Positions 33,007-43,980 of a stretch of 64,000 bases of DNA are shown here, piece by piece. Origin of the DNA: Methanofollis fontis (GTDB taxonomy: Archaea; Halobacteriota; Methanomicrobia; Methanomicrobiales; Methanofollaceae); NCBI RefSeq assembly GCF_004297185.1, contig NZ_PGCL01000002.1:496001-560000 (forward strand), given 5' to 3'. Made by a program: the position numbers and the translations under genes. The notes beneath the pieces were generated by a model that saw only the letters and a list, made by a program, of their open reading frames with translations, did no database searches and was not told the DNA's origin. Position 1 is the stretch's first letter; the number at the start of each line of letters is the position of its first letter.

Positions 33007-33774
33007 ATGGTCCGGACCGAGAGGAATATACGGAAGACCGCAGTGGCGGGGAGTTCAGCCGGCGCCCTGTACAGATTGCTGATCCTGTGCATCGTGCTCG
33101 TCTGCCTGCCCGCAGGTGCGGCGGCGCTGCAGGTCGAAATCGATGGGGACGTCCCTGAAGAAGTGGTTGAGGGCGAACTCATCGACTTTACCATCACGCT
33201 CTCCGGGATCCCGCCGGCAGCAGATATGCTCCATCTCGACACCGACCTGCTCCGATTCGGCGACGTCCCGCTCTTTGTACCCGCAGAGGGGGGGAACGCC
33301 ACCAATACAACGCCCCTCAATCTCCCCGTCCCTCCGGGCAGCGGTCCGATGAGTGTTCGCCTTCAGGGTCAGGTGCCGGCGGTCACAGAGATCACGCAGT
33401 GCGGGGCGGTCGTGCTCACGACCTTCGACCCGAAACGGAGCGGTTATACCTATTATCGGGTCCGGTTCACCGATGACGACGGCAACACCCTGACCGAGAG
33501 CGACACCCGCCTCTTCTCGATCAGGGTCGAGACCATCGATACATTCAGGGACAAACTGAACAGGATCGACGATCCCTTCATGCGGTCCTATCTCCAGGAG
33601 ATCTTTGAGAAGGGGCTGGTGAATGAGGCAAACACCCTCGCCAACTATGAACTCGGGCGGGAAGATGGGATCCCGATCATCTGGGCGGCGGCCGGCATTG
33701 TGGTGACGGCGATCGCAGCACTGATCGCGGGGATCTGGATCGGCGGACGGGAGATCGGGGGTGGCGAAGAATGA
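33007..33774 (+). CDS. Exported single-anchor protein, first gene of the tubulin-like operon
   Basis: A 255-residue protein of unknown function. N-terminal signal peptide or signal anchor (about 22-40, LYRLLILCIVLVCLPAGAAA), an extracytoplasmic beta-rich domain (about 41-165; LQVEIDGDVPEEVVEGELIDFTITL with NATNTT glycosylation-type sites), a helical stretch (about 175-215), and a C-terminal membrane helix (about 223-247) with a short charged tail. The topology suggests a surface domain tethered to the membrane with its end in the cytoplasm. Its stop overlaps the ATG of the tubulin-like gene (ATGA), so translation is coupled. Confidence 0.75.
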   Translation: MVRTERNIRKTAVAGSSAGALYRLLILCIVLVCLPAGAAALQVEIDGDVPEEVVEGELIDFTITLSGIPPAADMLHLDTDLLRFGDVPLFVPAEGGNATNTTPLNLPVPPGSGPMSVRLQGQVPAVTEITQCGAVVLTTFDPKRSGYTYYRVRFTDDDGNTLTESDTRLFSIRVETIDTFRDKLNRIDDPFMRSYLQEIFEKGLVNEANTLANYELGREDGIPIIWAAAGIVVTAIAALIAGIWIGGREIGGGEE

Positions 33775-36700
33775 ATGGTGAACGGCGGTCAGGGGCATCA
33801 CTCCAGCTCCCCCTGGACCTGACGATCTGCGGGCTTGGCGGGTGCGGGAAAAAAATGGTCGGCGAAATCTGCAGAATGGAGTGGTTCCTACAGCACTATT
33901 CCGCCGCCAGCAGGCATCTGCGAATCTATACGATGGACACCGATGCCAACGAGCGATTCCAGGACGAAAAACAGCGCGACGAAGTGCTTGAACGTGTCGA
34001 AACACTCGGGGGACGGGGAAACGTCGAATATGACGCCCTCTATCTCCCCAACCTGGCGAATATCAGTCAGGTCTCGGACCTTGCCGGGGCGGAGATCGCT
34101 GAGAAGATCAAGGGGGCCAAGGCCGAACCGGGAGCAACCGTCTGGTGGCTGAACGATCCGTCCGAAGAGGGACTGCGTTTCGACGAACTCCGGACGATTG
34201 ATCCCTTCATTATCGACGATTTCGGGGGTGGGGTCCACCGGCGACGGGCGATCTCCAAGGCCATCCTGTACAAGGTGATCAACGAAGGGCAGGCGAGCGG
34301 TTTTCCGATGTTCTCCACGATGGGAACGACTGCCATCGTCGTCGGTCTCGGCGGCGGGACAGGGTCGGGGATGTTCATCGATCTCGCCCGGTATATCAGA
34401 GGTCAGCGCGGGGAAACAGCCCAGATATGGCTATTTGTCGTCCTCCCGACCACGATGGAGGGGGAGAAGGAGCAGCTGAACGCCGCCGTCGCCCTGACCG
34501 AACTCGAGTATCTCAACCAGAACGAGCGTCTCTTCAACTACATCGTGCTCACCTCACTGGGCCCCACCGGCTATAAGAAGGGCGAGGAGGCGCGTGTGGA
34601 GGTGCACGAGTTCGATGCGGTCTTCCCCTCCATATTCACCAACGTCCTCCACCTCGAAAAGGGCGACATCAACATCGGTGACGCAAAAAAACCCTTCACA
34701 TCGTTCATGTGTGCGGATGCGCACGTGATCACCTACCCGGTCGAGGAGCTCAGGAGTCTGAAGGGCAGCTACGAGCGGATCATCGGGGCGATGGAGGAGA
34801 TGACCGCACACAGAAAACGGCTGAACGGCGCTGTCGGCGACCTGATGGATGAGATCGGACTGAAGCGGGAGGCACCGCCAACACGGAGCGAGTTCGATTA
34901 CATAAAAAAGGAGTATGCCACCGTCGAAAAGGTCTGGAAAAATGAGATAGGCGGTTTGCTCCAGTACCAGACCACCGTCGCCGTCGAGTTCTTCATCGAG
35001 AACAATATTCCTGCCGAACTCAGACCCGATGCCGTCAGGACCTTTGACGACCTCGCCGATTTCATCGCAAAGGTGGCGACCTTCTCGCAGGCGGTGAAGG
35101 AAGAGGAGTTGAAGGACGAGATCGACCGGAAACTCTTCAGGCTCCTGCCCGAGACCTTCCACGCCCTCGAAACAACGGCCAGGATCATGAAACGGATTGC
35201 AGCGGTCGAGGACGAGGCCCTTCACACCGCACTCATGGAGACGCTGAAGGGGAGGGAGGAGATGGCCCCGTTCATCAGGGACATCGCCGCCGCCAGAAAG
35301 GAGGTGACGGAGGAGATCCGAACGCTGGAGGGTGCCCTTCAGGACAGGCGGGCGGAGACGGAAAAATTACAGGAACAACGCAATCGGATCGGCGAGAAGG
35401 CGGATCAGGTGCTTGCCGGCACAGACGTGATGCTCGACCAGTACGTCACCCTGAAGGAAAAGGCACACACCGCCGAATCGGCAGAACCGGAGATTCAGCA
35501 GGCGATCAATACCGCTATCGTAGACCTCAGGGAAAAACGGGTCAGAGGGGGCGACCGGAACACCTGGCTCGCCGCCGCCGGGGTGCCAGATATCCAGCGC
35601 GAAATTTCGGCGCTCTCCCACGAGATCGACGAGGACCTCGACGGCCTGAACGAACTCGTCGAGACGATCGCCCTCTTTTCCTTTTATGATATGCGCATCC
35701 GGCGGATCGATGCCGGCGGTATCGGGTCGAAGATTGTGGGGATCATCAACAAACGACCGGCACGGGAACGGAAAAAATTCGAAGCGCTCAAACGCGAGAG
35801 CGAGGAGTCGATCAAGGCAAATGCCCGCTACTGGAACCTCGTCATCAATGCGCCCTTCGAACTGGAGATGCCCGGAGATTTCCTGAGCCGCAGCCTGCAC
35901 AGACGGGCGGAGGATATCAGGAGACGGATCCTCGACGAGGTGTTCGGCACCGTCGATGCCGGGGACGCCGGGGAACTGGCGACCATCTTCGAGGAGGCGG
36001 AACGGGGCCGGATCCGAAATACACTGAGGGAGCGGCTGATCGACGCCCTGCTCGGGCAGGAGGAGTATGCAGAGCGGTATGCAGCAGTGGAGAAGGAATC
36101 CGGCGACCTTGCTGCACGGCTGAAGGAGCGCTCCTCCTACAAAAACGCCCTGGAGAGGACCGAGGACGTGGCGGACGAGACCTTCCCCTCCCGCAGGGAG
36201 AGCAACCGGAACGCCCGGATCTTCCTGGCGACTCTTGTCGAGATCTCCGAACACGGCAAATCACGCGGCAAAACAACCAAAGGACTGTATACCACACGTT
36301 TTGGCGAGATCAATCCGCGGATCCTCTCCCTTCTCCACGAGGGATCATCGCTTCGGGACCTGGACTGGGACGAGAACGGGCAGCGAGAACTCGATAAACT
36401 TCTCTCAGAGGTCGCAACCGCCTACAAGCACCTCCTTGACAACTACAAGCTCGGCATCCATAACCTGCTGATCCCGATCACCGCCACCGAGCGCTGGAAC
36501 TTCGGCAAGGTCGGTCTGGTGATCGCCTCGCCCTCCGAGTATCTCTCCCGGGCCATCACCAGCTCCCGGGTCGGCGACGAGATGAGACGGGATATCAACG
36601 ACACCCTGGCCCTGCGGAACATCAATGATTCCCGTCTGGTCACCCATCAATATGCCCGACCATGGGAGATCACCCTGACGTTCGTTGCCGCCGCGGGGTT

Positions 36701-36944
36701 CCTGGACAACATATCCCCCCTCATCGCAGGCGGCGGATACTGGGAGATCTATGAGAGAAACCGGGACAACATCCTCCATCATGTCATCAGGATGCATGAC
36801 GGCGAATACATCACCAGAACCAGACTGATGGACCTCAGGGAAGCCGGACAACTCTCCAACCGCGAGAAAAAGGGAGAAAATGTATCTGAATCGGTGCTCG
36901 GCCTCTACACTGTCAGGGGGATCAGGGAGGCACTGCAGAGATGA
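33771..36944 (+). CDS. Giant tubulin/FtsZ-superfamily GTPase-like protein
   Basis: A 1057-residue protein. The N-terminal 320 residues show a tubulin/FtsZ nucleotide-binding fold: a glycine loop GLGGCGKKMV (21-30), an acidic MDTDAN strand end (55-60), the tubulin signature GLGGGTGSGMF (192-202), VVLPTTMEGE (223-232), and LNQNERLFNYIVL (248-260) like the T6 region. A long helical part (about 330-700) with heptad-like Lys/Glu patterns forms coiled coils, followed by a large C-terminal region (about 700-1057) without a domain I recognise. It resembles Tubulin_2-type proteins, not FtsZ or CetZ, which are near 370-400 residues. ATGA overlaps join it to both neighbours. Assembly into filaments is plausible but unproven. 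Confidence 0.8.
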   Translation: MNGERRSGASLQLPLDLTICGLGGCGKKMVGEICRMEWFLQHYSAASRHLRIYTMDTDANERFQDEKQRDEVLERVETLGGRGNVEYDALYLPNLANISQVSDLAGAEIAEKIKGAKAEPGATVWWLNDPSEEGLRFDELRTIDPFIIDDFGGGVHRRRAISKAILYKVINEGQASGFPMFSTMGTTAIVVGLGGGTGSGMFIDLARYIRGQRGETAQIWLFVVLPTTMEGEKEQLNAAVALTELEYLNQNERLFNYIVLTSLGPTGYKKGEEARVEVHEFDAVFPSIFTNVLHLEKGDINIGDAKKPFTSFMCADAHVITYPVEELRSLKGSYERIIGAMEEMTAHRKRLNGAVGDLMDEIGLKREAPPTRSEFDYIKKEYATVEKVWKNEIGGLLQYQTTVAVEFFIENNIPAELRPDAVRTFDDLADFIAKVATFSQAVKEEELKDEIDRKLFRLLPETFHALETTARIMKRIAAVEDEALHTALMETLKGREEMAPFIRDIAAARKEVTEEIRTLEGALQDRRAETEKLQEQRNRIGEKADQVLAGTDVMLDQYVTLKEKAHTAESAEPEIQQAINTAIVDLREKRVRGGDRNTWLAAAGVPDIQREISALSHEIDEDLDGLNELVETIALFSFYDMRIRRIDAGGIGSKIVGIINKRPARERKKFEALKRESEESIKANARYWNLVINAPFELEMPGDFLSRSLHRRAEDIRRRILDEVFGTVDAGDAGELATIFEEAERGRIRNTLRERLIDALLGQEEYAERYAAVEKESGDLAARLKERSSYKNALERTEDVADETFPSRRESNRNARIFLATLVEISEHGKSRGKTTKGLYTTRFGEINPRILSLLHEGSSLRDLDWDENGQRELDKLLSEVATAYKHLLDNYKLGIHNLLIPITATERWNFGKVGLVIASPSEYLSRAITSSRVGDEMRRDINDTLALRNINDSRLVTHQYARPWEITLTFVAAAGFLDNISPLIAGGGYWEIYERNRDNILHHVIRMHDGEYITRTRLMDLREAGQLSNREKKGENVSESVLGLYTVRGIREALQR

Positions 36945-38359
36945 GGGTGAGGGACCGGGAGCGTCTGGCCCTTGAAGGGGGAATCGCAGCCACCGGTCTC
37001 GCCCTCTCGATCGCCCTGCTGCTGGTGGTGCCGGATGCAGTGTCCGGACCCCTGCATCCATTCCTCTCCTACCCGATCGGCTTTTTCATCGGATTTCTGG
37101 TCCCGGGCGTCTGCGGACTCATGATAGAAGGGCAGGCGAGAAAACACGGGACGAACCTGCTTGCCCTTATCACGCCCATCGCCGCCGTCTATCTCATCCG
37201 TTCAGCTGATCCGGCTATTCCAGCCGTTGCCGCAGGGATCCTTGCAGCACTGACCGCAACAGCTCTCACCCTCGTCCAGAACCGCTTTGATACCCTGGCT
37301 GAATCAATCCGCCTGATGTTCATGCTGCTCTTCGCAACATGTGCCATCTCCACCATTCTGCTGATCCTGTCCAGTCCCCCCCTCCTGGTGGCGGGCGGGT
37401 GCGCCCTCCTCTTCATTATGGCGCTGTTTGTACGCAGGATGGGACCACAGATCCGCCCCTCCGAGATCTTCATGATCGGTCCGACGGGTTCGGGCAAGAC
37501 GCTGCTCATGGTCGCCCTCTACACCTATATTGTGGGCGAATACGCCGGGACCAGACGGAGCGTGATCCTCAGCGGAGAGGGGCAGGAGGAGACGATGCGG
37601 ATAGAGCACCTCATCTCAGGTCTCGAGAGCGGACACCTGCCACCCCCCACCCGGGGCACCGACCTTGCGATATATCGGTTTTCCGGAAAAAAATACGGGG
37701 TCATCCCGGTAGAGACAGGCATCGTCGATTATGCGGGATCTCATGCCGCCTCGATCGATGATTCCGCCGGCTTTGCTGCCGCCGTCGAGACCATCGCAGG
37801 GGGAATCGGGACCGAACCGGCAGAGATCATCGCCCATATCGGTGGGTTCGACTATATGAAACAGCTGAAAGAACGGCACGCATCAGATATTGCCGGGATC
37901 ATGGACGCTGTCGTCACCGCCTGCATCTTCCGGAGGGCAGAGACCGCAACCAGAATCCTGTTTCTCATCGACGGTGATGATATCGTGCACTTCCATACCA
38001 CCGGGAGGCAGCGACTGACATCCCTCTTCGGATACTATACACAGGTGATGGACCTCCTGGGCAGTGAGCGGGCGTACGGTTTCGTCGTCACAAAGGCCGA
38101 CAGGATTCGCAATATACGTGATATCGAAGAGCGATCGGATGAAGCGCTCCGGATCGAACAGGAAATCTATGAGATACTCCTGCCGATCAGCACCTTCCAC
38201 GAGATCCATAACCGTGCCCTCACCATCCCGATCCATTTCTATGCGGTCAGCGTGAACGCCATGCTTGAGCCCGAGGATCAGGAGAGGGAGGAGGGAGAGA
38301 CAGGGTTCCGGCAGGTCTATCCCTGGGGCATCGGGGAGGTGGCGAGGTTCGGGATCTGA
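36941..38359 (+). CDS. Polytopic membrane protein with TRAFAC-like GTPase domain
   Basis: A 472-residue protein. The first 165 residues hold about six membrane helices. The cytoplasmic domain has G1 GPTGSGKT (180-187), a HLPPPTRGT segment (232-240) in the place of the switch I Thr, G3 DYAG (263-266), and G4 TKAD (384-387), a set typical of TRAFAC GTPases; RILFLIDGDD (338-347) is a further acidic strand. The L-x-x-G-x-L-P-P-P-T motif recalls GTPases of bacterial multi-gene conflict systems. It is the last gene of the three-gene operon, coupled to the tubulin-like gene by an ATGA overlap. Probably the membrane-seated switch of the system; inferred. Confidence 0.75.
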   Translation: MRVRDRERLALEGGIAATGLALSIALLLVVPDAVSGPLHPFLSYPIGFFIGFLVPGVCGLMIEGQARKHGTNLLALITPIAAVYLIRSADPAIPAVAAGILAALTATALTLVQNRFDTLAESIRLMFMLLFATCAISTILLILSSPPLLVAGGCALLFIMALFVRRMGPQIRPSEIFMIGPTGSGKTLLMVALYTYIVGEYAGTRRSVILSGEGQEETMRIEHLISGLESGHLPPPTRGTDLAIYRFSGKKYGVIPVETGIVDYAGSHAASIDDSAGFAAAVETIAGGIGTEPAEIIAHIGGFDYMKQLKERHASDIAGIMDAVVTACIFRRAETATRILFLIDGDDIVHFHTTGRQRLTSLFGYYTQVMDLLGSERAYGFVVTKADRIRNIRDIEERSDEALRIEQEIYEILLPISTFHEIHNRALTIPIHFYAVSVNAMLEPEDQEREEGETGFRQVYPWGIGEVARFGI

Positions 38360-39349: not shown

Positions 39350-40375
39350 TCATCCGTCCCTTCTTTTTTTCCAGATTTCCACTAGTCCAAAACTCCCGGT
39401 AAGCATCATGTCTCCATATGCAGCCGCCTGCCATGCATCAGGGAGGAGACGACGCCGGTTCGGTCCGGTGACGGCAACCGGCGTCTGTCCAACCGCTTCA
39501 TACATGGCGGCGCCGTGCCCACCGTCATCGAAGACCTCCCGGTTCGTGAGCGTTCCCTCCTGAAGACGGCGGATGAGCCCCTTCAGTGTCGGTGTATCGA
39601 GTGCGGCGGTGTGGTGCTCAAACATCCCGCAGACGCAGGTGCCACGGAGGGTGAAACAGAGGGTGTGACCGTTGCCGGCATTCACAATGGTAATGCCGCC
39701 TCCTGCCCGTTCTGCAACCCAGGGATCCAGGAGGGCGCCGATCGCCGCCGCCGGACCGGTGTCGGTGACGAGCGCTCCGGGGGCGCCGGAGAGCACTGCC
39801 TGCATCCTGGTCATCGAGGGATGGGGGGGGTCGGGGGCGAGGGCATAGAGGTCCCGGTCTCCGGACTCGAGGAGATCCCTGAAGACTTCGAAGCGGTGGA
39901 GGCGGTTGGAGACCTTCGGCGAGTATCCATGGTCCTGCACCGCCACCGCCACCTGTTCAGGATAGGTGACGCCGAACAGTGAGAGGGCCGTCCGGATCTC
40001 CTCCTCCATATAGTCGCCGGTCCGCACCCGCATCGCACCTGCAGCCGGTTCGTCCGTGACCCTGACGCCCATCCTCTGCACCCGTTCAGGATCGTCGTGG
40101 ATGGTCGGTGCGGCCTCAGGAGACGCCGTCACCGAAAGACCGGCACCGATCGCCGCCATCACCGCAGAGACGCTTCCACCGCCGCCCATGCACGTCCCCT
40201 CCAGGTGGACGGGCCGACCGACCTGTGCGGCGCTCCGGATCGCATTCCCGACGATGACGGTCGGGGAGGGGAGGACGAGCCTGAAGGAGTTTTCTGCCGG
40301 GATATCGGGATCATAGATCAGGATGTCCTGTGTTCCCCTCCCGACGTCCACGGCAAGAATGCGGCGGTCGCTCAT
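39350..40375 (-). CDS. DUF1786 family protein (ASKHA-like fold)
   Basis: A 341-residue protein starting ILAVDVGRGTQDILIYD (about 6-22), an ASKHA-type phosphate-1 loop, with EGTCMGGGGSVSAVMAA (59-75), TDTGPAAAIGALLDP and GGGITIVNAGNGHTLCF (about 227-243). Matches DUF1786, an archaeal and bacterial family of unknown role. Its ATG overlaps the stop of nrdD (ATGA), so it is the third gene of a glutaredoxin-nrdD-DUF1786 operon, which hints at a part in ribonucleotide reductase or radical-enzyme function. Confidence 0.82.
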   Translation of the reverse strand: MSDRRILAVDVGRGTQDILIYDPDIPAENSFRLVLPSPTVIVGNAIRSAAQVGRPVHLEGTCMGGGGSVSAVMAAIGAGLSVTASPEAAPTIHDDPERVQRMGVRVTDEPAAGAMRVRTGDYMEEEIRTALSLFGVTYPEQVAVAVQDHGYSPKVSNRLHRFEVFRDLLESGDRDLYALAPDPPHPSMTRMQAVLSGAPGALVTDTGPAAAIGALLDPWVAERAGGGITIVNAGNGHTLCFTLRGTCVCGMFEHHTAALDTPTLKGLIRRLQEGTLTNREVFDDGGHGAAMYEAVGQTPVAVTGPNRRRLLPDAWQAAAYGDMMLTGSFGLVEIWKKRRDG

Positions 40376-43300
40376 GTCCGTACACCGGCCGGGGTGTCGG
40401 TCTCCAGATGGCCGGGCACCTTGCGGCCGCCCCGATAGTCCTTGAAGCGCCTGAGGGAGACCGTGAGGTCTCGGGTGAAGGCGAAGTAGCCAATCTGGGT
40501 CTTTCTGCAGAGGTTCATCGCCATGTCATAGAGCCCCCTGGGATCGGGTCTGGCTTCGCCGAGCCAGATATGGAAGATGTTGCCACCATCGACGATCGGG
40601 AAGAAGACATGCTCGATCTCCATCCGCTTTGTGAGGGGGACGTCGGCGCCCGGCGCCACATGGGTGCCGTTGGTGTAATACACCGGCAGATCCCGGGTGG
40701 TGCCGCAGTCGGCGACTGCTGTCTCGACATCGCCCTTCATCACGCTGAGGGCCGCATCCCTGAAGCGCTCGTCGATCATGTCGGCGACAGAGAAACGCTG
40801 ACCGGTCGTCTCGGCCGGTGTGCGCGCCAGCGCGATCGTCATGCCGGTGCGGGCGCTGATATCACGGGCATACAGCTCCAGCTCGGTCATCGCCCGCACC
40901 GCCAGCCTGAACGAATCTTTTGATTCGTGGAGCTGACTGCCGGTATGGTGCTGGACCATCTCATTGACGCCGACCACACCGATCGTGTAGACGAGGCCCT
41001 CGAGGTCGACCGCCACCTCACCCCGCTCCCCGGTGTTGGGATCCTTCGGGCGCTGCATGGCAAAGGGCATCCGCCCATTGGTGCGGATCGTCTCCATCCA
41101 GCGCCGCTTGATCGTGAACACCTCGACGGCCACATCCATCAATGCCTTCAACTCAGCAAACAGGCGCTGGTCGTCACCTTCAGCCCTGAACGACGCCCTC
41201 GGACAGTTGATCGAGACCACCTGCCACGAACCCATCGAGAAATGCCTGCCGTCCCTGAAATAGAGTTTGTCCTCAAACTCCGAGTCCTTGTCGAAGGTTG
41301 CGGAAAATTGATACGCACAGCATTGATAGCACGAAATCCCGTTCCCTGCCCCCCGATAGGGCGGGAGCTGGTTGTCGTAGTAGGGGGTGCCGAACTTGGA
41401 GGCGAGCTCAAAGGTGAGGAGGTAAAGGTCCTGGTAGGTGGGGAGGTCGGGGTGCTGGCGGTTGAACTCCTCGTCCTCGTCCATGAAGTCGGGTTCGATG
41501 GATATCTCGGGTTTCGGGAAGGAGAAGGGTTTGCCCCAGGCGTCGCCCTCGAGCATCACCTCCATCATTGCCCGGAAGAGCAGGCGGACCTCCCGTTCGA
41601 ACTCCCCGTAGGTCCGTTTCGGTGCCTGCGTCCCGTCCCAGACCTTCCCCTTGTAGACACAGGGCTTGTCCCGCCAGAGGCTCGGGACGCCGGGAGAGAG
41701 CTGCACCGAGGAGAAGACCAGCTGACCGCCACGCGCCACCATCATCTGGGTCATCTCATAGACGAACATCTGCATCAGCTGCCTGATCTCCTCATACGCC
41801 ATCCCCTCAAAGAAGGGGGCAATGAAGGTGAGGAAGTTGTAATATCCCTGCCCGCCGGCGAAGTTGGTCTGGGCGCTTCCGAGGGCCTTGACCGCATGGA
41901 GGACCGCAACCTCTGGACGCTTTGCCGGTCCGGCCACGCTCGCCTTCGTGCCGTTGCCGTCCGGCATCAGGCCGTAGTAAAAGAAGTAACGGAGGTCCCA
42001 ATCTTGACAGTTATGCACGAGAAGCCCATCGGAGGCGAAAAATGTATGACTTTCCTCTGAACCGTCCCCCTCAAGAAAGAGATCATAGACCCATTCACCG
42101 GAAGGAACCGCCTCATCGACGGTAACGACCTCCTCTCCCCGGTGTGCACGCCCCATCGGTTGTACAGCGGCACAGAACCGATCGAGGTGATCCTGCCGCT
42201 CATCCAGGAAGCGTGCAATTCGGGCAAAGGTCCTGATGTTTGCAGAACCATTGAACTGGATGCGGTAGAGTGTCGTGCGAGCATCATCCGAATAGAGATC
42301 GAGAATATGCGACCGGATCCCGAACGAAGAGAGCAGGAGGGAGATTTCCTGCCTGAGGGCGGGCGAGGCGGTGGTGTAATTGACAATACAATCAGATTTC
42401 TCCGGTCTGTAATACACAGAACCGTCGCCGGTGAAGAGTGCCGACAGGAACTCTCTCTGGAGGGCATCGTCAAGGTGCCAGACAATCCAGGGGAGGCGCT
42501 TGTTTTCAGCTCCCTCCGGTACGGCAAAGACATATCTGAAGAGGAGCCAGCCCAGTTTCCCGCCGAAATAGACCTGCATCGCACGGTTGTGCTCAACACG
42601 GGCGCCATAGATCTCGGTCACATCAGGTGTGCCGCCGGAGAGGGTCGCATAGCCTCCGAGCGCCGTTCCGACATCGTTGATGATCGCCCCCGACTGATGA
42701 TTCTCGGTGATGGCGAGGTTGTAGGTGCTGCCAGGGACAACATCATAGTTCCCTTCCGATACAAAGAATCCGAGAAGACGGCAGAGGGCAGGGGTCACCG
42801 GCATGACAGCAGGGAGTTCGTGCTCGCTGCCGGCGACGCCGATCCTGAGATCTCCATACTCCTCAATACCATAGTGTTCGGAAAAGGCCCTGAAGAGCGT
42901 GAGAGGCATGCTCCCGCGGGTGAACCAGTCCTTTTTATGTGCGACGCCGAGGGCACGGGATATGCCGGCAAAACTTCCCTCCATCTCCGAGATCCGCTCG
43001 AACAACGGGCGAGCGCCCCGAACCCAGACCGTATCCAGGAGGTCTGCAGGCACCGATCGGGAGAATTCCCGGATCAGGTCGATCGAGGAGACCGACGGCC
43101 CCCGGATCTGTTGATCTCTATCCGTCCCGTAGAGCACGTCACCCGCACCGATATCGGCGGCCTTTTTGATCTGCATCGCCCCATCGACCAGGACCGGGAT
43201 CCGGTGCTCGCCGGTAACACGAATGCTCTTTCCGGTGGCGGTACGGATACAGAGCATCTCACCCTCCGCAACAGGACGCCGGGTGACCTTGCATACCCGC

Positions 43301-43980
43301 CGATATCCGCCCGGGGTGAGGGCCTCAAGAGCGTCCGGGCGATATTCCTCCCCCTCAAGAGGCAGTTCGTCAAGTCGGATTGTCCGATGACGCCCTGAAT
43401 GACGGAAAGGAACGATTGTGCCGCCGTCCAGACAGAACGGGCGTGAACCAAAGTATTCGAGGTCATGGATATGGAGGTCGCCCGCCAGGTGGCGGTCTGC
43501 GAGGTCGGGCGGGAGCTGGAGGAGGTACTGCTCCTTGCTGATCTTGTCGGCCTTCTTTTTATGGGAGGTCTCGGCGTTCTCCTGGAGGTTGGCGTTGTCG
43601 TGGGCCTCAAAACCCCGACCCACATCAATGAGGTGGGCGTCAAAGACAGGGGTGCCGACGCGTGTGCAGACATTCCTGTACTCGACCATCCCGCGCTCAA
43701 GGAAGGTCATGTTCACGATCTCACGGATGAGCGGACCGGAGAGGGAGCGCAGACCCAGTTTCAGGATCCGCTCCTCCACGGTCCTGGCGATCTCCTCGGA
43801 CTCCTCGCGGCTGGCACCGGAATACCCATAGAACTCCTCAACAAGACGGGTCTCCTTCTCGATCTGGGCGACGATCTTGGAGCGGTCCCACTCAAAGATA
43901 TGCCCCTCCGATGAACGAACCTTCGGCATCGGGGGGAGAAAAACGCCGTCGAGGGTCGCCTGTTTGCTATGCCGCTCCAC
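40372..43980 (-). CDS. nrdD: Anaerobic (class III) ribonucleoside-triphosphate reductase with intein
   Basis: A 1202-residue precursor; removing the intein (residues 183-657) leaves 727 residues, normal for NrdD. It begins with an ATP-cone-like domain (about 18-110: KVRSSEGHIFEWDRSKI). The core shows DLHIHDLEYFGSRPF, CYQCCAYQFS, and SINCPRASFRAEGDD, with FFPIVDGGNIFHIWLGE near the end. The usual C-terminal zinc ribbon and RVxGY glycyl-radical motif are not visible: the protein stops soon after QIGYFAFTRDLTVSLRRF. It makes dNTPs under anoxia. Upstream is a glutaredoxin gene two bases away; no activase gene (nrdG) is in the window. Confidence 0.93.
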   Translation of the reverse strand: MERHSKQATLDGVFLPPMPKVRSSEGHIFEWDRSKIVAQIEKETRLVEEFYGYSGASREESEEIARTVEERILKLGLRSLSGPLIREIVNMTFLERGMVEYRNVCTRVGTPVFDAHLIDVGRGFEAHDNANLQENAETSHKKKADKISKEQYLLQLPPDLADRHLAGDLHIHDLEYFGSRPFCLDGGTIVPFRHSGRHRTIRLDELPLEGEEYRPDALEALTPGGYRRVCKVTRRPVAEGEMLCIRTATGKSIRVTGEHRIPVLVDGAMQIKKAADIGAGDVLYGTDRDQQIRGPSVSSIDLIREFSRSVPADLLDTVWVRGARPLFERISEMEGSFAGISRALGVAHKKDWFTRGSMPLTLFRAFSEHYGIEEYGDLRIGVAGSEHELPAVMPVTPALCRLLGFFVSEGNYDVVPGSTYNLAITENHQSGAIINDVGTALGGYATLSGGTPDVTEIYGARVEHNRAMQVYFGGKLGWLLFRYVFAVPEGAENKRLPWIVWHLDDALQREFLSALFTGDGSVYYRPEKSDCIVNYTTASPALRQEISLLLSSFGIRSHILDLYSDDARTTLYRIQFNGSANIRTFARIARFLDERQDHLDRFCAAVQPMGRAHRGEEVVTVDEAVPSGEWVYDLFLEGDGSEESHTFFASDGLLVHNCQDWDLRYFFYYGLMPDGNGTKASVAGPAKRPEVAVLHAVKALGSAQTNFAGGQGYYNFLTFIAPFFEGMAYEEIRQLMQMFVYEMTQMMVARGGQLVFSSVQLSPGVPSLWRDKPCVYKGKVWDGTQAPKRTYGEFEREVRLLFRAMMEVMLEGDAWGKPFSFPKPEISIEPDFMDEDEEFNRQHPDLPTYQDLYLLTFELASKFGTPYYDNQLPPYRGAGNGISCYQCCAYQFSATFDKDSEFEDKLYFRDGRHFSMGSWQVVSINCPRASFRAEGDDQRLFAELKALMDVAVEVFTIKRRWMETIRTNGRMPFAMQRPKDPNTGERGEVAVDLEGLVYTIGVVGVNEMVQHHTGSQLHESKDSFRLAVRAMTELELYARDISARTGMTIALARTPAETTGQRFSVADMIDERFRDAALSVMKGDVETAVADCGTTRDLPVYYTNGTHVAPGADVPLTKRMEIEHVFFPIVDGGNIFHIWLGEARPDPRGLYDMAMNLCRKTQIGYFAFTRDLTVSLRRFKDYRGGRKVPGHLETDTPAGVRT
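42010..43434 (-). mobile_element. Intein with LAGLIDADG homing endonuclease inside NrdD
   Basis: A 475-residue intein (NrdD residues 183-657). It starts at Cys183 (CLDGGTIV) after the extein GSRPF, has block B TGEHRIPV (256-263), endonuclease blocks LCRLLGFFVSEG (399-410) and EFLSALFTGDG (510-520), and ends LLVHN (653-657) followed by Cys658, the +1 nucleophile. All splicing residues (Cys1, TxxH, His-Asn, Cys+1) are present, so it should splice. Both LAGLIDADG motifs keep their acidic residue (Glu409, Asp519), so the nuclease may be active. Confidence 0.93.

Follow-up and report, generated by a model that had tools for sequence, protein, structure and literature searches.

The nrdD gene in the window and its ending

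We analyzed a 64,000-nucleotide stretch of the Methanofollis fontis genome (contig NZ_PGCL01000002.1, positions 496,001 to 560,000; here called the window), which carries nrdD, the gene for the catalytic subunit of class III ribonucleotide reductase (RNR), an oxygen-sensitive enzyme that produces the building blocks of DNA. The window NrdD belongs to this class by its NRDD/TIGR02487 match, which lies above the curated cut-off (440.4 bits for TIGR02487; cut-off, 326.35). The C-terminal zinc ribbon and glycyl radical loop of class III RNR are not on the same chain; they are encoded in trans, by a separate gene for a small protein of 120 amino acids (aa). The locus has the following features, and we call the product of the shortened nrdD the body.

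40372..43980, minus strand: nrdD body, the class III RNR catalytic subunit minus its C-terminal radical domain (TIGR02487 match)
43435..43980, minus strand: N-extein, residues 1-182, with a weak ATP-cone match, the NxN flap (NAN) and HxHD (HIHD)
42010..43434, minus strand: LAGLIDADG intein, residues 183-657, directly before the Cys of RPFCQDWDLR (intein models)
40375..42009, minus strand: C-extein, residues 658-1202, with the remaining barrel, the finger loop and the body end
41317..41340, minus strand: finger loop GISCYQCC (C884, C887, C888), which includes the candidate thiyl-radical Cys (alignment)
40375..40455, minus strand: 27-residue tail that replaces the zinc ribbon and radical loop (alignment of the order's bodies)
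39350..40375, minus strand: DUF1786 gene, whose start overlaps the nrdD stop (ATGA)

The nrdD open reading frame (ORF) encodes 1202 aa with the intein and 727 aa without it. The ATP-cone match on the N-extein (PF03477) is weak, at 17.8 bits against a cut-off of 25.8. Relatives without the intein read RPFCQDWDLR across the insertion site. The intein between RPF and C is present in some relatives and absent from others, and some relatives (G007, G014, G019, G011, and G029) have a second break site near NRDD 259-263. The window NrdD retains the NxN flap (HDNANL), HxHD (HIHD), the finger-loop Cys, and ARTPAE. The finger loop GISCYQCC is invariant in all 21 aligned bodies.

The profile match of the window NrdD ends at position 510 of 562 in NRDD and at position 529 of 581 in TIGR02487. 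The C terminus reads ...QIGYFAFTRDLTVS, followed by 27 residues (LRRFKDYRGGRKVPGHLETDTPAGVRT) and the stop. An earlier note on this DNA, made from the sequence alone, had reported that NrdD ends without a zinc ribbon or glycyl radical motif and has only about 30 unrelated residues before the stop. Our analysis agrees on both points, and the stop lies where the note had put it. Within the order Methanomicrobiales, the tail starts with L-x-x-[FY]-x-[ED] and is variable afterwards. It may possibly serve as a docking tail.

All 23 fused archaeal homologues compared (22 different, as L080 repeats L065) continue into a Cys-bearing ribbon and an R-x-x-G-Y motif. We found no zinc ribbon with a glycyl radical loop in the window NrdD chain or elsewhere in the 64-kb window. 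A six-frame scan of the window gave only two R[VIL]xGY strings, neither of them within 60 residues after a C-x-x-C. When 20 radical-domain proteins were compared with the window by tblastn, none of the matches listed was better than E 0.28. Because the radical domain is absent from the body and from the window, and is present in trans, the window protein is a variant and not an ordinary NrdD. A sequencing error does not explain the ending: the nrdD stop runs into the start codon of the following gene, and the bodies of relatives stop at the corresponding position.

A separate gene encodes the radical domain

A six-frame NRDD search of the window's genome (98.5% complete) found the body, the body's N-terminal part, and one further locus, G000:C1:227761-228147, which matches NRDD 462-562. 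This locus holds the following gene.

G000:C1:227797-228156, plus strand: small radical-domain gene, 120 aa, on a different contig from the window

The earlier note had argued that a simple frameshift does not explain the ending, and this proved right. The six-frame searches of the window and of the genome rule out a frameshift or a hidden downstream exon; no radical-domain sequence lies in the six frames of the window, and the domain is a separate gene on another contig. The note had also suggested that the radical glycine has moved. It does appear to have moved, but into a separate 120-aa gene, a route that the note did not name. A second complete nrdD, which the note had named as a possible refutation, was not found in the genome by the NRDD search.

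The small protein reads MQWTEEQ...YKCHTC...CPVCG...CPLDHTHC...YCPLCGAAVCPECGCHDVSQISRVTGYLQDVSGWNAGKQQELKDRVRYTVA, with the radical motif region SRVTGY...GWNAGKQQELKDR. In each of 20 aligned copies (its own and those of 19 relatives), translation from an ATG yields a protein of exactly 120 aa. These copies share 53 invariant positions, including ten cysteines and S91, R92, T94, G95, and Y96. The ratio of nonsynonymous to synonymous substitution rates (dN/dS) is 0.01 to 0.14 in 28 Methanofollis pairs, and the small protein is under purifying selection.

NCBIfam and Pfam models match only the last part of the small protein, and they match it as NrdD in 20 of 20 copies. In the one member listed, the best NCBIfam matches are NrdD models, with TIGR02487 541-581 covered. 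All 20 copies match NRDD, and Gly_radical, the Pfam family of the pyruvate formate-lyase (PFL) C terminus, is absent among the 13 families matched at E <= 0.1. The best PDB match is Prevotella copri NrdD, at chain positions 697-737 (E 6e-8). This segment falls inside the P. copri radical domain, which spans residues 676-739 and has its radical at Gly711, according to excerpts of PMC11226230.

We considered that the radical glycine might have moved within the body itself, or that the body and the small protein might be joined by protein trans-splicing, to which the intein in the body would lend itself. However, a single ORF contains both ends of the nrdD intein, which makes it a cis intein, and no intein model matches the body end, or the small protein at E <= 0.01. 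The tail of the body is variable and has no conserved Gly. Either route is extremely unlikely.

The split NrdD marks the order Methanomicrobiales

We compared 31 genomes (the window's own and those of 30 relatives); in all of them the NRDD match of the body ends at 510-516, and position 562 is reached by a separate piece. We searched 232 Methanomicrobiales genomes with the small protein and with the body. Both genes were found in 184 genomes, the body only in 13, the small gene only in 9, and neither in 26; two of the nine small-only matches (G280 and G345) are weak, with E above 1e-5. Among the 135 good genomes, 120 have both genes, 2 the body only (G260 and G381), 1 the small gene only (G359), and 12 neither. 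All three exceptions are draft assemblies with 70 to 810 contigs. Among the matches listed, every frame that holds the small protein is 120-290 aa long. The 18 genomes listed with neither gene all belong to genus g16 (family f6), which we take to be probably Methanocorpusculum.

A sample of 245 genomes from the phylum gave an NRDD match in 53 genomes of the order and in 99 others, and the five genomes of the order listed without one are all g16. Outside the order, among the matches listed, NrdD is fused and reaches 560-562, except in G075 (1-417). The split NrdD marks the order Methanomicrobiales, and to that extent the divergent subtype proposed in the earlier note stands.

The presence of drafts in the sample raises the question of an assembly or sequencing artefact. 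However, the same ending occurs in single-contig genomes and across the order, which refutes this explanation and leaves it a negligible probability.

Two genomes of the survey have additional copies. G127, a single-contig genome, has two equal-scoring NrdD bodies 15.7 kb apart (G127:C1:285019 and 300739). G409 has four small-protein matches, perhaps proviral copies.

Standalone radical domains occur outside the order and in viruses

The small protein served as query against 294 genomes of the phylum. Short standalone ORFs were found beside a full fused NrdD in eight of eight genomes outside the order: five of genus g45, G178, and two Alkanophagales (G442 and G437). Their likeness to named records L097-L099 suggests that genus g45 and G178 are Methanococcoides or near it. 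A standalone copy in G073 has an end that looks frame-broken.

Among named records, we scanned the best 80 of 224 relatives. All 80 have the match in a frame of at most 255 aa, with L103 and L140 beginning at a record end. They come from Methanomicrobiales, Methanococcoides, anaerobic methanotrophic archaea (ANME-2), Methanosarcinales, Alkanophagales, archaeon GLR112, and a few metagenome-assembled genomes (MAGs) called bacterial. The standalone radical domain of the Methanococcoides-like, Alkanophaga, and ANME-2 records (L085-L092, L097-L101, and others) is a candidate RNR spare part.

Two of these MAG contigs look viral: on L102 the gene is preceded by those for the small and large terminase subunits, and on L104 it lies near a phage-type DNA polymerase gene. 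IMG/VR contributed 14 virus contigs (L177-L190). On all 14, the sole NRDD match (E <= 0.01) is a short frame of 109-157 aa, and at this threshold no NrdD body was found on any of them, in records that may be fragments. The ORF of L190 has the radical loop and lacks the Cys ribbon, which speaks against a ribbon throughout the family. On six of these contigs, ten neighboring proteins were tested, and the neighbors include terminase, primase, helicase, and Sak4 genes.

In a tree of the radical domains, the virus protein L181 groups with G022 of the order (support 95/90), and L180, L182, L183, and L184 fall among the order's proteins with weaker support. Because these proteins place with those of the order, the hosts of the L180-L184 viruses are probably Methanomicrobiales. 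Neither phage records searched with L102 nor plasmid records searched with L033 yielded a match over more than 54% of the query length; whether these shorter matches are standalone or fused was not checked.

Origin of the small protein

The ribbon before the radical loop has the spacing C-x2-C-x4-C in 47 of 47 standalone rows (17 from the order, 17 from other records, and 13 from viruses; 45 are different, and L190 is not counted). The same spacing occurs in none of the 23 fused archaeal ends (17, plus six first dropped by a filter). In the 17, seven have 10 residues between, and ten lack the first C-x-x-C pair. The standalone proteins also share a further upstream segment that contains CP, and a following Cys. 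On these sequence features, we assign the small protein to a standalone family with its own zinc-ribbon spacing.

The radical-domain tree has few columns and many open forks. On the trimmed alignment (45 shared columns), a single split divides standalone from fused domains; its support is 93/97, and it appears in 92% of bootstraps. Support for this split is 100/100 on a longer alignment, a value that is overstated, since non-homologous flanks were aligned.

The same two-part enzyme could have arisen by simple fission, in which the order would have kept its own C-terminal domain after the separation of that domain from the body. This origin would suit the fused NrdDs of family f21 (L094 and L095), which are 61-83% identical to the body's C-extein. 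A tree in which the order's small proteins are forced next to the f21 fused ends is not rejected by an approximately unbiased (AU) test (p 0.29, 45 columns); the test does not discriminate between fission and replacement. However, the ribbon spacing that separates all standalone from all fused ends, the common CP segment with its following Cys, and the single standalone/fused split argue against fission, which we regard as unlikely. The ribbon spacing and the shared upstream segment favor, without proving it, an origin in which a standalone domain replaced the built-in one.

A wider scenario is offered tentatively, as a possibility that falls a little short of probable. A standalone radical-domain family, carried by viruses and kept as spares for intact NrdD in several anaerobes, may have taken the place of the built-in domain in the ancestor of Methanomicrobiales. 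The glycyl radical would then be a detachable, exchangeable protein cofactor. Viruses of these archaea may now bring the radical part alone, in the frames of 109-157 aa beside replication or packaging genes, to run or repair the host enzyme during infection.

A proposed two-polypeptide class III RNR

Judging from these comparisons, we think it very probable that the class III RNR consists here of two polypeptides, with the window NrdD as its catalytic half and the glycyl radical on the separate 120-aa subunit. The evidence comprises two separate, conserved genes that co-occur, the expected motifs, purifying selection, and a genome in which no other NrdD and no PFL-like enzyme was found. The body lacks nothing except the radical loop, and the small protein carries that loop together with cysteines that resemble zinc ribbons. 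Our best reading, by analogy, is that the small protein works like YfiD/GrcA of PFL. However, the part would be obligatory and not a repair part, because the catalytic chain has no radical domain of its own. In this scheme, the small protein would fold around zinc through its conserved cysteines and dock on the open top of the NrdD barrel, which would set the SRVTG(95)Y loop beside the finger-loop Cys. An NrdG-type radical S-adenosylmethionine (SAM) enzyme would form the glycyl radical on the small protein in trans, and the radical would pass to the body's Cys for catalysis.

An activase of the kind that the earlier note had in view is present: an NrdG2-family gene lies at C2:285038, apart from the small gene, and scores 150.2 bits with TIGR02495 (cut-off, 131.15) with a Radical_SAM match. 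Excerpts of the P. copri study (PMC11226230) describe the Tyr after Gly711 as bonding core Glu581, and the radical domain as mobile and too disordered to see once deoxyadenosine triphosphate (dATP) binds. Our alignments, with a four-residue offset fixed by Gly711, match Glu581 to the Glu of the TPAE motif retained in the body. A radical domain that is not covalently attached is plausible, because the P. copri domain is mobile and its Tyr-Glu contact maps to the TPAE of the body.

Several observations weigh against such an enzyme. The body and small genes are unlinked; in the 21 single-contig genomes with both places listed, the distance between them in record coordinates ranges from 17 kb (G175) to about 2 Mb. 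One genome of the order, G012, has a second, complete short NrdD of another type besides the split one. The window's genome encodes a class II NrdJ (TIGR02504 above cut-off), and a class I/II-type barrel (PF02867, not typed further) occurs in 28 of the 29 good genomes of the set. Since NrdJ or the PF02867 barrel offers a second deoxynucleotide route, the split enzyme need not be essential. G026, the sole good genome without the barrel, is a draft, and six of the seven good genomes of its genus have one; we therefore make no claim of essentiality from it. For structural comparison, the Methanofollis sp. STE_20 copy of the 120-aa protein (L154) was modeled with AlphaFold (predicted local distance difference test score, 84.5; 43 rows). 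Foldseek gave no NrdD chain among the best 50 of 69 rows (best E 1.2), and VIA-align gave no NrdD over 319 chains (best Z 2.1). Based on this model, the fold search neither supports nor contradicts an NrdD-type fold.

Some of these facts would also suit a different explanation, in which the small protein serves only to repair some other glycyl radical enzyme, and the NrdD body is a remnant in decay. The standalone relatives sit beside an intact fused NrdD in all eight genomes outside the order, and the class II NrdJ could carry the load. However, the window's genome has no other NrdD and no match to a PFL-like enzyme, and such a partner is rejected. The body has a dN/dS of 0.02-0.06 (three pairs) and a mean column identity of 84% across 21 bodies, and both genes are kept together across the order. 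We consider the repair part with a remnant body very unlikely.

If the two-polypeptide enzyme is real, the split would explain a "missing motif" that could otherwise suggest a truncated or dead enzyme, and it would point to a likely function for the 120-aa protein. A natural split found throughout an order would let the separability of radical storage, activation, and catalysis be tested. A small virus-borne part that completes a host DNA-precursor enzyme would be an unusually cheap auxiliary gene.

Neighboring genes and additional observations

A DUF1786-like gene (judged by eye, from its RGTQD start) follows the NrdD body in 15 of 25 loci checked. Pfam describes DUF1786 as a putative PFL activating enzyme. 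Farther along the window, 33771-36944 encodes a large protein with a GGGTGSG tubulin/FtsZ-like signature, and an overlapping gene at 36941-38359 has membrane-like and GTPase-like stretches; both were judged by eye.

In three loci of the order (L033 of the window's own genome, L120, and L162), the small gene is followed by genes for CbiZ (adenosylcobinamide amidohydrolase) and an oligonucleotide-binding (OB)-fold protein like replication protein A (RPA). L033 has a hydroxyethylthiazole kinase gene in between, and L120 and L162 have an orotidine monophosphate (OMP) decarboxylase gene upstream of the small gene.

In G002, G003, G004, and other genomes, about 345 model positions of PF02867 are spread over roughly 2 kb, and the frames are about 1,100 aa long. 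This other RNR probably also contains an intein.

Comparison with known systems

The body shares the NRDD barrel, NxN flap, HxHD, finger-loop Cys, and TPAE with single-chain NrdD (Thermotoga maritima 4COI and P. copri 8P23). The small protein shares the Cys ribbon, RxTGY, and WNxGKxxELxDR, and an NrdG-type activase is present. However, the M. fontis parts are encoded by two genes far apart, and the small protein differs in its additional Cys-rich part at the N terminus and in its shorter ribbon.

Among the papers listed by full-text literature searches, we found neither a split class III RNR nor a radical-domain gene carried by a virus, other than T4 Y06I, which serves PFL; most subscription journals and preprints lay outside their scope, and an earlier notice is possible. 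A split class III RNR goes unmentioned in the excerpts of PMC3019208, PMC4390871, PMC9531940, PMC9669993, PMC8683613, PMC11528403, PMC11226230, PMC2686161, PMC9723712, PMC12288474, PMC11194802, and PMC8463856. As excerpted, the class III RNR literature places the radical in the catalytic chain throughout.

Among the closest analogues are YfiD/GrcA and phage T4 Y06I, each a small free glycyl radical domain that completes an enzyme in trans, with phage occurrence, as excerpts of PMC8683613 describe them. Unlike these, the small protein is of the NrdD type and not the PFL type, and its partner has no domain of its own. It is a small free protein with a glycyl radical motif, as GrcA/YfiD is, but it shows no homology to the PFL C terminus; by analogy, it would work like GrcA/YfiD without being a member of that family. 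In the excerpts, YfiD and Y06I, which serve cleaved PFL, are the sole validated spare parts, and parts for other enzymes are only speculated about (PMC8683613). The small protein, if the two-polypeptide enzyme is real, would be the RNR counterpart of that speculation.

RNRs of other classes also occur in pieces. The class II NrdJa/NrdJb of Pseudomonas is made of two polypeptides, with a zinc-finger C-terminal part on the second chain (excerpts of PMC9669993). Unlike the class III enzyme proposed here, NrdJa/NrdJb is class II and uses a B12 radical. Its separate part is not known to hold a radical. In the class I NrdA of Aeromonas phage Aeh1, the catalytic subunit is in two chains, broken by a homing element. 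The M. fontis enzyme would resemble Aeh1 NrdA in having its catalytic subunit in two chains and differ from it in class.

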